NCBI GenBank assembly: GCA_030019255.1
Contig: JASEFK010000005.1
Location: 62,001 to 126,000, forward strand
Source: Actinomycetota bacterium
GTDB lineage: Bacteria; Actinomycetota; Geothermincolia; Geothermincolales; RBG-13-55-18
Length of the DNA stretch: 64,000 nucleotides
Direction of reading: 5' to 3'
Made by a program: the position numbers and the translations under genes. Shown piece by piece: positions 28,895 through 58,853 of this stretch; position 1 is the stretch's first letter, and each line of letters opens with the position of its first letter. Below the pieces are notes generated by a model that saw only the letters and a list, made by a program, of their open reading frames with translations, had not been told where the DNA came from and made no database searches.

Positions 28895-31800
28895 CTATTG
28901 CTGGAAGCGGCGGCGAAGGCCCAGGGCCACCAGCACCAGCCCCAGCAGCGTAAGCGCCGCCGCGGCCAGCAGGAGGGGAAGTTGCTCCATGCCGGTGGCC
29001 GGAAGGGCGGTGGTCCCCCCGGTGATGGCCGGTGGCGTAGGGGGAGTAGGCTGTATGGGAGGCGTCACCTCTTCCCCTCCCACGATGATCACGCCGTTCA
29101 GGAAGTCCACGTTCTCCTCGGCACCGGGGGCCAGCTCCACGTCCACGCTCTTATCGGTGATGGCGGCGTACTTCTGAGGGTCGAACTCCTCGGTCACCGT
29201 GTAGTTCCCGGCCTCCAGGAGGAGGAAGGAGAAGGTCCCGTCCTCACTGGTGACCGTCTGCATCTCGACCTCCTCGCCGCCCAAGGTCTCGCCGGTCAGC
29301 GTGATGGTGAATCCCGGTCCCGGGTCGTCCTGGTCGGGCTCCAGGACACTGTCTCCGTCGTCCAGCCACTTGGAGCCCACGATGGACCCGTAGGGGGCGT
29401 TGGCGAAGAGCACCGTCGCCTCCTCGCCCGGACCCACGGAGACCTCCATACGGATGGGCAGGGTGGCATAGTGGCCGGCGGGCACCGTCTCGCTCACCGC
29501 GTACTCTCCGGGCAGGAGGTTGTCGAAGGAGAAGGTCCCGTCCTCACCGGTGAAGGTCTCGGCGAAGGCCTCCGTGTCGCCCAGGCCCTCGAGGGTTATC
29601 TTGACCCCCTGCAGGCCGGTCTCGCCCTCGTCCAGCACGCCGTCCCCATCCAGGTCCTGGAACTTGAAGCCCTCGATGACACCGTAGACGCAGTTGCCGA
29701 AGTTCACCACCGCGCCCTCGCCGGGAGAGAGCTTCACGGACACCGAGTCGGGGGTGGTGGAGAAGTACCCGTCGGTTCCCTTCTCCACCACGGTGTAGGT
29801 TCCGGGCTCCAGCTCGGGGAAGGAGTAGGAGCCGTCCTCGCCGGTTACCGCGGTGTCCAGGAGCTCATCCGGCGGGCTACCCGCCCACAGCTCGATGGTG
29901 ATGCCGGGGATGACGGTGGTCTCGTTCTCATCCCAGACCCCGTCGCAGTCCTCGTCCAGCCACTTGGTGCCGGTGATGGAGCCGTAGGGGGCGTTGCCGA
30001 AGTACACGGTCTCGGTTTCCCCGGGCTCCAGCTCCACCACGATGGAGATGGGACCCGTGGGGTAATAACCCGGCAGGCTGGATTCGTCCACCGCCACCAC
30101 GTAGGTGCCGGGTGACAGGTTCGGGAAGGAGAAGAGGCCGCCGCCGGCAGTGATCGCAGTACGCCATCCGCCATTGAGCTTGATGGTAACTCCATCCAGG
30201 CCCTCCTCGCCCTCGTCCAAGATGCCGTCCTGGTCGAGGTCCAGGAACTTGACGCCCTCGATGCTCCCGTAACGGCAGTTGTGGAAGTCCAGGCCCTCGA
30301 GGGGCTGGCCGTAGACCAGGTTGAAGTCGTCGTGGGAGCCGTCGTCCGGGTTGGTGGGGAACCATCCCTCGGGCAGGACCTCCCTCACCGTGTAATTGCC
30401 GGGAAGGAGGCCGGTGAAGGAGTAGCTCCCGTCCTCGCCGGTGACCGTCTCCGCCACCTTCTCCTCGCCCTTCCACAGCTCGATGGTCACTCCCGGAACG
30501 GCGGGTTCTCCCTCGTCGCGGGCGCCGTCCTGGTCGAGGTCCTCCCACTTACTACCGGTTATGGAGAGGTAACGGCGGTTGAGGAAGTCCAGGCCCTCCA
30601 CGTTGTAGCCGCACCCCACCTCGACGCCCTCGTGGATTCCCTCCGGTGGAGAGACGGGATACCATTCCTCGGGCAGGACTTCCTTCACCGTGTAGACCCC
30701 GTCCTCCAGGTCATCGAAGAGGTAGCTCCCGTCCTCGCCGGTGACCGTCTCCGCCACCTTCTCCTCGCCCTTCCACAGCTCGATGGTCACTCCCGAAACG
30801 GCGGGTTCACCGGCATCATGTATACCGTCCCCATCCAGGTCCTCGTACTTGTGCCCGGAAATATGGAAGAGGGGCGCGATGAGGAACTTCACCTGCTGCC
30901 AGATGCATGTAGGTATGCAGTAGTAGCACTTTAGCTCGAAGGTGGTGAAGGTGTCCGTGTACGTCCTTCCCGCCCATTCGATAGTGAGGGGCTTCCATCC
31001 GTCCGGGACTACCATGTGGACCTGGTAGCGCCCGTAAAGGTTTTCTCCCAGCGGATTCCCGAAGAGATCATAGTTGTTGCATGGAAGCTCTTTCCAGCTC
31101 GCGCATCCGTAAGGATATACCGGCCACCAGGAGGGACCGGCGCCCGTGGGTTTCTGGTAGGAGCCATCCCAGCTGTCGGCGGGCACCAGCATCCCGTCCA
31201 TGTCGTGGAACAGCTCTATCACCACCGGCTGGGGATGCAACGAGTCGCCGTCGTCCAGTTGGCCGTTGCAGTTGGTGTCCTCGAAGACCAGGACCTCCAC
31301 CTTGCCCTTTCGGCATTCGGCCCTCCGGTTAAGGAAGTCGACACCGGTGATGTCCTGACCGCTTGCCACCTGGAGGTTCTCATGGGAGCCGTCGGCGGGG
31401 TTGGTTGGCGCCCAGCACTCGGAGAGGACCTCCTTCACCGTGTAGACACCGGGTTCCAGGTTTTGGAAGGTATATCCGCCGCCTGCGCCGGTGACCGTTT
31501 CCTCTATCTTCGCGCCGTCCTTCCACAGCTCGACGGTCACCCCGGGGAGCGGGGGCTCGTCCGGGTCCTTCTCGCCGTCCCCGTCCCGGTCCTCGTACTT
31601 GTGCCCGGAGATGGAACCAAAAGGTACCTCCACGGGCACGTTGCCGAAGAAGACGGTGACCGTCTCCCCGCTGGAGGGTGGCTCCCAGCATTGGATGCCG
31701 GGATCCGCCACACCGGTGCATAGCTCGATCTCGTAGGAGGTGGGGGTGGTGGCCCGGTAGCCCTCGGGCACCGTCTCGCTCACCACGTAGGTGCCCGGTT

Positions 31801-32290
31801 CCAAGCCGGAATAGCACACCAAGCCGTCCGCGTTGGTCTGTCGGGGATCGCCGCCGTCGAGGGTGAAGGTCACCCCGGGCATGCCCGGTTCATTATCGTC
31901 CTTGATGCCGTCCTCGTCCAGGTCCAGGAACTTGACCACGCAGATTTCGCACTCCGGCTGCGGCGAAGGACAGCACAAGGCCTGGGCGCTTTCCAACACG
32001 GTAGACGCTTCCGTCCCCTCCGTGCCCCCGCCATCATTGGGCCCATCCGCTTTTTCGGCATTGGAATCCACCGCCATCGGCTGTTCGCCGCCGGCGGGAA
32101 TGCCCTCTGGGGCATCTTCCGCCAGGACCGCGGTCCCCGTTCCTCCCGCGTCCAAGATGTCAGCGGAGGTCTGGGACTCCCCGGGCGCCTCGCCGCCGCC
32201 GGCCAGTGCGGTGACTATGCCTCCGAGCAGGGTGGCCATAAGCAGCAAACACACGGAAAGGAGCACCAGTCCCTTTATCGACCCCTTCAT
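28895..32290 (-). CDS. LPATG surface protein built of SdrD-like B domains
   Basis: 1131 residues; GGAGGTGA precedes the ATG. The signal peptide is residues 1-31. From about 115 there are roughly nine prealbumin-like modules, each opening with a calcium-style D-x-D-x-D-G segment (KFLDLDEDGIKDDNEPG, HKYEDRDGDGEKDPDEP, KWEDLDQDGARDEGEP and others) and containing 'GEDGSYSF..L.PG.YTV.E'. One module (about 330-470) is divergent and Cys-rich. The C terminus is a sortase signal: LPATG at 1096-1100, a hydrophobic helix, then RRRFQQ. It would be linked to the wall by a sortase, but none is encoded in the window. It stands at the edge of the polysaccharide locus as a likely stalk or adhesin. Confidence 0.9.
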   Translation of the reverse strand: MKGSIKGLVLLSVCLLLMATLLGGIVTALAGGGEAPGESQTSADILDAGGTGTAVLAEDAPEGIPAGGEQPMAVDSNAEKADGPNDGGGTEGTEASTVLESAQALCCPSPQPECEICVVKFLDLDEDGIKDDNEPGMPGVTFTLDGGDPRQTNADGLVCYSGLEPGTYVVSETVPEGYRATTPTSYEIELCTGVADPGIQCWEPPSSGETVTVFFGNVPVEVPFGSISGHKYEDRDGDGEKDPDEPPLPGVTVELWKDGAKIEETVTGAGGGYTFQNLEPGVYTVKEVLSECWAPTNPADGSHENLQVASGQDITGVDFLNRRAECRKGKVEVLVFEDTNCNGQLDDGDSLHPQPVVIELFHDMDGMLVPADSWDGSYQKPTGAGPSWWPVYPYGCASWKELPCNNYDLFGNPLGENLYGRYQVHMVVPDGWKPLTIEWAGRTYTDTFTTFELKCYYCIPTCIWQQVKFLIAPLFHISGHKYEDLDGDGIHDAGEPAVSGVTIELWKGEEKVAETVTGEDGSYLFDDLEDGVYTVKEVLPEEWYPVSPPEGIHEGVEVGCGYNVEGLDFLNRRYLSITGSKWEDLDQDGARDEGEPAVPGVTIELWKGEEKVAETVTGEDGSYSFTGLLPGNYTVREVLPEGWFPTNPDDGSHDDFNLVYGQPLEGLDFHNCRYGSIEGVKFLDLDQDGILDEGEEGLDGVTIKLNGGWRTAITAGGGLFSFPNLSPGTYVVAVDESSLPGYYPTGPISIVVELEPGETETVYFGNAPYGSITGTKWLDEDCDGVWDENETTVIPGITIELWAGSPPDELLDTAVTGEDGSYSFPELEPGTYTVVEKGTDGYFSTTPDSVSVKLSPGEGAVVNFGNCVYGVIEGFKFQDLDGDGVLDEGETGLQGVKITLEGLGDTEAFAETFTGEDGTFSFDNLLPGEYAVSETVPAGHYATLPIRMEVSVGPGEEATVLFANAPYGSIVGSKWLDDGDSVLEPDQDDPGPGFTITLTGETLGGEEVEMQTVTSEDGTFSFLLLEAGNYTVTEEFDPQKYAAITDKSVDVELAPGAEENVDFLNGVIIVGGEEVTPPIQPTPPTPPAITGGTTALPATGMEQLPLLLAAAALTLLGLVLVALGLRRRFQQ

Positions 32291-32529: not shown

Positions 32530-32552
32530 GCCCGATCGCCGTGCGATCGGGC
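32530..32552 (-). terminator. Attenuator-like hairpin in the surface-protein leader
   Basis: Perfect 10-bp stem GCCCGATCGC / GCGATCGGGC with a 3-base loop, followed on the minus strand by TTTGTATAT, about 240 bases before the gene start. It lies downstream of a promoter-like TATAAT at 32671-32666. A further possible helix ATCCGCCA...TGGCGG precedes it (about 32566-32612). I could not match the upstream part to a known riboswitch class. Confidence 0.6.
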
Positions 32553-32665
32553 CGGTTTCACCACTCGCTCCCCGCCACCCAGGTGACCAGGTCAAGGATG
32601 GCGGATCACAGCTTTCCCTCTCGCCGTATTCCTGACGTAACGGGACTACTTATTCAACACAAAAC

Positions 32666-58364: not shown

Positions 58365-58565
58365 ATGCCCATATTCGAGTATCGGTGCGAGGAATGCGGC
58401 CACCGCTTCGACGCCTTCTTCCGCCGCGCCGAGGAAGCGGATAAGGAGACCCCCGCCTGCGGGAAGTGCGGGTCGAAGAAGGTGCGCAAGCTCTTCTCCG
58501 TGCTGGGCCTGGGAGGGAGCAGCCGGCAGGACCTCTCCAGCGGTTGCAACACCCGCTCCACGTGA
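58365..58565 (+). CDS. FmdB-family zinc-ribbon protein
   Basis: 66 residues; AAAGGAGGAAGG precedes the ATG. The CxxC pairs C8-E-E-C11 and C32-G-K-C35 form a zinc ribbon; the start MPIFEYRCEECGHRFDAFF is the family signature. FmdB-like proteins are small putative regulators of unknown target. In the same direction, 123 bp later, lies the tiny membrane ORF with a candidate Sec codon. Confidence 0.92.
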   Translation: MPIFEYRCEECGHRFDAFFRRAEEADKETPACGKCGSKKVRKLFSVLGLGGSSRQDLSSGCNTRST

Positions 58566-58688
58566 AGCCCCTGGTAGGGGTCCGGTCCGGATCCGGGTAA
58601 GGAAGGGATATCGCGAAGCCATAAGCGCCGCCGGTGAATCTGCGTCGCTCCAGGCCCGGCGGCTCGGAAAGAGGGAAGAAGGTGGAAA

Positions 58689-58853
58689 ATGGAGTGGATC
58701 ATACCCCTGCTCGTGCTGGCCGTGTGGCTGGTGTTGAGCATTTTCATCCTGCCCCGCCTGGGAGTTCCCACCTGAATGTCCCCTTCCTGCCGCGTGCGGC
58801 ACAAGGAGGATGACACCTTGGAGGGTGAGGAGGACAAGAATCATCTCCTCTAG
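58689..58853 (+). CDS. Candidate small membrane selenoprotein (TGA at codon 29)
   Basis: ATG 58689 (GAAGGTGG upstream) opens one hydrophobic helix (WIIPLLVLAVWLVLSIFILP) followed by PRLGVPT and an in-frame TGA at 58773-58775. After the TGA the same frame continues MSPSCRVRHKEDDTLEGEE... to TAG at 58853, giving 54 residues with Sec at 29 and Cys at 34. The hydrophilic tail fits a membrane-anchored small protein. A hairpin placed like a bacterial SECIS follows the TGA. Without Sec insertion the product is a 28-residue membrane peptide; a second ORF could also restart at the ATG right after the TGA. Confidence 0.5.
58782..58806 (+). promoter_or_regulatory. SECIS-like hairpin downstream of the TGA
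   Basis: Upper stem TGCCG (58788-58792) pairs with CGGCA (58797-58801) around loop CGTG; outer helix CCTT (58782-58785) pairs with AAGG (58803-58806) across a small internal loop. The apical loop begins 17 bases after the TGA and has G as its second base, within the known bacterial SECIS rules. Confidence 0.5.

Follow-up and report, generated by a model that had tools for sequence, protein, structure and literature searches.

The window (the whole stretch of 64,000 nucleotides analysed here) carries a gene for an FmdB-family zinc ribbon, which has no internal TGA, and downstream of it a very small gene with a TGA in its reading frame (Table 1). By direct reading of the sequence, 28 codons lead from the ATG to the TGA, and the same frame continues for 25 codons more before a TAG (58851-58853). 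The read-through product is MEWIIPLLVLAVWLVLSIFILPRLGVPT-U-MSPSCRVRHKEDDTLEGEEDKNHLL, where U is selenocysteine (Sec) and the tail begins MSPSC. The protein is laid out as an N-terminal transmembrane helix, the motif (F/L)P(R/K)xGxxTU, a UxxxxC spacing and a hydrophilic tail. The 54-residue product is predicted to be a single-pass membrane protein: an AlphaFold model places a helix at residues 4-23, the remainder being of low confidence. Across the loci of the family, basic residues follow the helix at positions -11 and -6 relative to the Sec site, and acidic residues are absent from that stretch. Given the positive-inside rule, this charge distribution leads to the inference that the N-terminus lies outside and the C-terminus inside, with the Sec beside the helix at the cytoplasmic face.

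Table 1. Features at and beside the candidate selenoprotein gene (window coordinates)
Feature	Position	Strand	Basis
FmdB-family zinc-ribbon gene, probable functional partner	58365..58565 (including stop)	+	TIGR02605 E 4.4e-15; PF09723 E 4.9e-15
Shine-Dalgarno-like AGGTGG, 3 bases 5' of ATG 58689	58680..58685	+	Direct reading
Gene very likely encoding a selenoprotein, 54 residues and TAG	58689..58853	+	Read-through translation; family alignments
In-frame TGA, very likely decoded as selenocysteine	58773..58775	+	TGA in 83/83 loci; Cys in three Myxococcota homologues
Conserved Cys codon at U+5	58788..58790	+	U+5 in 77/83 loci, U+6 in 4/83
SECIS hairpin TGCCG-CGTG-CGGCA, within the reading frame	58788..58801	+	17 nt from TGA to loop; fold, covariation and published criteria

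The hairpin 3' of the TGA is formed by the arms TGCCG (58788-58792) and CGGCA (58797-58801), and the second base of its loop is G. The minimum free energy (MFE) of the RNA in this region is -16.8 kcal/mol (z -2.66). Published criteria for bacterial SECIS elements (bSECIS) comprise a loop of 3-9 nt, a stem of 4-16 bp, a G in the first two loop bases, a spacing of 16-37 nt and an MFE of -7.5 or lower (PMC13188914). The window hairpin meets all of them, with a loop of 4 (CGUG), a stem of 5 bp, a spacing of 17 nt and the energy given above. Rfam has no match at the selenoprotein locus. A preliminary description of the window had listed the open reading frame, the TGA, the tail, the hairpin with its spacing and loop G, and the Cys; all of these are present in the sequence.

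Elsewhere in the window, a c-di-GMP-II riboswitch (32542-32625, minus strand, 55.5 bits) lies upstream of a minus-strand open reading frame (28895-32290, 1131 aa), in which SdrD/Cna-B-like repeat domains and, at the C-terminus, a membrane anchor were recognised by eye.

Spread and conservation of the family

Scanning the genomes of 84,980 bacterial and archaeal species returned 20 true relatives, all with TGA at the site, from Geobacter, other Desulfobacterota, Myxococcota, Anaerolineae, KSB1, UBP1 and Krumholzibacteriota. A further candidate from Streptomonospora (L028) was dropped as a chance match of 16 residues. In profile searches, the family was found in 13 of 59 relatives of the window's genome, in 19 of 396 genomes of its own phylum, Actinomycetota (a 20th match, partial and by chance, was not counted), and in 165 of 395 sampled genomes of Geobacter's phylum, or about 40%. 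About 150 of these last matches were listed, all with TGA; some 16 weaker ones fall outside the listing, and their TGA is unchecked. The Myxococcota sample yielded 29 of 331 genomes (26 with Sec and three with Cys), and the Chloroflexota sample 4 of 370, two of its six matches being partial. The gene family is present in hundreds of bacterial genomes from at least seven phyla: Actinomycetota, Desulfobacterota, Myxococcota, Chloroflexota, KSB1, UBP1 and Krumholzibacteriota, the phylum of each locus being taken from its record title. Its cultured members include Geotalea sp. SG265 (L018). Two genomes have two copies each: a Myxococcota genome (G1052, L183), where the copies are about 2.9 kb apart, and the genome of the Geobacter locus L017 (G066), where one copy (L143) adjoins OsmC and FmdB genes.

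Conservation was followed base by base at 83 loci. The codon at the Sec site is TGA in every one and TAA or TAG in none; W at -16, P at -7, G at -4 and T at -1 are likewise invariant, so that PxxGxxT precedes the TGA. A Cys is found at +5 or +6 in 81 of the 83; six loci lack it at +5, four of which have it at +6. Three Myxococcota homologues (L177, L179 and L181) carry a Cys codon exactly at the Sec site and form with the Sec versions a classical Cys/Sec pair. These are the only Cys forms, about 1-2% of the family members found; the notion of a wholly Sec-only family was dropped once the Myxococcota search had yielded them. Myxococcota variants have VPxPRRS in place of the usual +5 Cys stretch. 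The three Cys versions also lack the +5 Cys and have a VP-containing stretch instead, as do several Myxococcota Sec forms.

The hairpin is conserved as a structure. A SECIS-like stem of at least 5 bp occurs in 72 of the 83 loci, where shuffled sequences give an expectation of 25; among these 72, the first two loop bases include a G in 71 (53% in shuffles). Within a gap-free alignment of 24 sequences from a single geometry class, paired cells make up 95.2% against 63.3% when shuffled, double changes occur at all seven pairs, and shifting the partner by one base reduces pairing to 55% or less. The covariation score is 0.878 against 0.246 for shuffled alignments (0 of 500 shuffles). Since the class was chosen for fixed-register pairing, the paired percentage is biased upward, and more weight belongs to the double changes.

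The window's own order has a different, shorter hairpin geometry and was left out of that alignment. Among sequences from 11 order-mates, the hairpin codons TGC CGC GTG CGG are invariant, whereas the codons of the equally conserved upstream stretch PRLGVPT vary synonymously. This suggests selection on the RNA, an argument limited by the relatedness of the 11 sequences.

Selenocysteine machinery and neighbouring genes

In the window's genome (98.8% complete), selD, selA, selB and selC are clustered on contig 14, and selC is a tRNA-Sec with anticodon TCA. A SelD that itself contains Sec, with active site SGU, is encoded at the head of the selD-selA-selB-selC cluster (L039:1501-2424). The selA gene is present in all 13 relatives tested first; two or three fragmentary family-bearing genomes lack a full selA. 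It is also present in most family-less genomes of the sampled Desulfobacterota and Actinomycetota, and likewise in the three Myxococcota genomes with Cys forms. Co-occurrence with selA was considered as support and rejected as uninformative, since most family-less genomes have the gene too; selA is necessary for the presence of the family and does not discriminate.

FmdB genes recur beside the selenoprotein gene. At 29 of the 83 loci (ten of them from order-mates of the window), an FmdB gene lies within about 900 bp on the same strand, upstream or downstream depending on the lineage. Chance adjacency would be expected at about 0.1 of 83 loci, given some 4.4 FmdB genes per genome, the mean over a sample of 24 FmdB-neighbour genomes. 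The next recurrent same-strand neighbour is thioredoxin, found six times among the 84 neighbour proteins scanned; related Desulfobacterota may account for five of these. Both partners may occur together, as in the gene orders ArsR - selenoprotein - ORF - FmdB - thioredoxin (L116) and, in Anaerolineae, thioredoxin-like - FmdB - selenoprotein (L016). Further neighbours include C_GCAxxG_C_C, YgaP-like transmembrane, OsmC, DUF302, DUF6132, TauE and ArsR proteins. Many loci have neither FmdB, thioredoxin nor any other recurring neighbour.

Two side observations concern these neighbourhoods. Firstly, in the thioredoxin-like gene of the Anaerolineae locus (L016:4148-4588, plus strand; PF00085 E 9.3e-11), an in-frame TGA occupies the first position of the CxxC site (EFYSNT-U-STC). 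The RNA fold 3' of this TGA does not stand out from shuffles (z -0.17), so a second Sec there rests on the UxxC alignment alone. Secondly, a glutamyl-tRNA synthetase gene is found near the selenoprotein gene at six loci from several phyla (L121, L127, L131, L009, L011 and L023).

The family, its conserved UGA and SECIS element, the sel genes, and the recurring FmdB and thioredoxin neighbours are shown by sequence evidence. On this evidence, with no protein or selenium evidence to add to it, the locus very likely encodes a true selenoprotein. The preliminary description had proposed just this, a 54-residue selenoprotein linked to FmdB, and its reading is very likely right, with a stronger case than a single sequence could give. 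The homologues continue past the TGA, and the tail with its Cys is conserved; homologues with Cys at the exact position exist, three only; selA, selB, selC and a Sec-containing selD are in the genome; and the hairpin agrees with the bSECIS criteria and covaries across the family. The FmdB link also held, the adjacency recurring across phyla. The suggestion of a thiol or metal site remains an inference.

Putative function and relation to known selenoproteins

In the proposed mechanism, SelB, tRNA-Sec and the hairpin just 3' would cause ribosomes to decode the UGA at 58773 as selenocysteine, and the product would be a membrane-anchored, cytoplasm-facing selenol/thiol redox site. The Sec may pair reversibly, as a selenenylsulfide, with the Cys at +5 or, alternatively, join a client thiol or sulfane sulfur in a mixed bond. 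Such bonds are suggested by the combination of UxxxxC at the membrane surface with thioredoxin and a zinc ribbon. Reduction would be carried out by a thioredoxin-like protein, and the site may be coupled to the partner FmdB zinc ribbon. The U/Cys pair is not universal, given the six loci without Cys at +5, and the functional reading draws support from only a minority of contexts, as many loci lack FmdB or thioredoxin neighbours. A role of the small selenoprotein in thiol/sulfur redox is an inference that could fall either way; its topology, redox chemistry, reductant and substrate are all inferred and none has been shown.

The alternative that survives best is that the role of the Sec is not thiol redox but the binding or trafficking of a metal, a metalloid or a species of selenium. 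This remains possible: ArsR-family regulators adjoin the gene in several lineages, zinc ribbons of the FmdB type accompany it at 29 of the 83 loci, RND-type efflux genes (named by eye) lie upstream at L022 and L149, and the chemistry of a U/Cys pair would allow it to bind soft metals. Against it, the thioredoxin, C_GCAxxG_C_C, OsmC, DUF302 and TauE neighbours favour thiol/sulfur redox, and metal resistance genes are not consistent among the neighbours. A second alternative makes the selenoprotein a subunit that regulates or helps to assemble a larger membrane redox complex and has no chemistry of its own. Such a part would suit its very small size, its single helix and its varied neighbourhoods, some of which include cytochrome-like and ferredoxin-like genes (named by eye). 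This alternative is unlikely, since complex subunits do not recur among the neighbours and the nearly invariant Sec speaks for chemistry. That the TGA, otherwise a normal stop codon, simply ends a 28-residue membrane peptide whose helix is already complete, the tail and hairpin being incidental, is all but excluded by the absence of TAA and TAG from all 83 loci, the Cys at the site in three homologues, the frame and Cys conserved 3' of the TGA, and the covarying hairpin.

The selenoprotein reading places the family among the bacterial bSECIS selenoproteins such as FdhA and SelD, with which it shares UGA decoding, a hairpin at 16-37 nt, the loop G and the sel genes. It differs in that it matches no listed family's model, and in that Cys versions, the majority among those selenoproteins, are rare here. 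No credible match to NCBIfam or Pfam models was found for 21 family members, and the family is absent from the sections of a 2026 selenoprotein review table that were searched. A search of the open-access literature yielded no report of the motif or of small membrane selenoproteins from bacteria; a subscription-only or unpublished report is not excluded.

Three known groups invite comparison. The FmdB family also figures in a selenoprotein from the GOS data (TIGR02605, CxxU; PMC2398784), where the Sec lies inside the zinc ribbon itself, whereas in the window FmdB is a separate open reading frame without a TGA and the Sec is in the membrane peptide. The DG, DW and DF proteins described with deep-Sep (PMC12013277) are, similarly, small hypothetical selenoproteins of Desulfobacterota with no known function. 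Their NCBIfam models (NF049953, NF041197 and NF049942) do not match the new family and, unlike it, all three have a number of Cys homologues. In eukaryotes, SELENOK and SELENOS are likewise small selenoproteins that cross the membrane once and carry their Sec in the cytosolic portion. Their Sec is near the far C-terminus, whereas that of the new family is next to the helix; by analogy, the likeness may extend to how the proteins work, and homology is not expected.

A bolder reading, towards which the balance tips only slightly, is that this is among the most widespread uncatalogued bacterial selenoprotein families, a nearly Sec-exclusive, membrane-anchored selenol that, together with FmdB and partners of the thioredoxin type, would make up a redox module of anaerobes that has gone unrecognised. 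In one Chloroflexota case, the partner thioredoxin-like protein is itself an apparent UxxC selenoprotein. If true, this would be an exception to the usual predominance of Cys homologues over Sec forms. According to the deep-Sep authors (PMC12013277), Cys homologues appear to exist for every known selenoprotein, and a selenoprotein lacking them may be lost by their filter; most published bacterial selenoprotein searches rely on such homologues. With the family in about 40% of one phylum's sampled genomes and its Cys forms so few, searches that depend on Cys homologues can leave common selenoproteins undetected. The gene is also likely to be overlooked by gene callers because it has only about 30 codons before the UGA. 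The family makes it testable why Sec is nearly irreplaceable at this site, and its protein, small and tractable, can serve the study of Sec versus Cys. FmdB, whose function is not established, gains a candidate partner.
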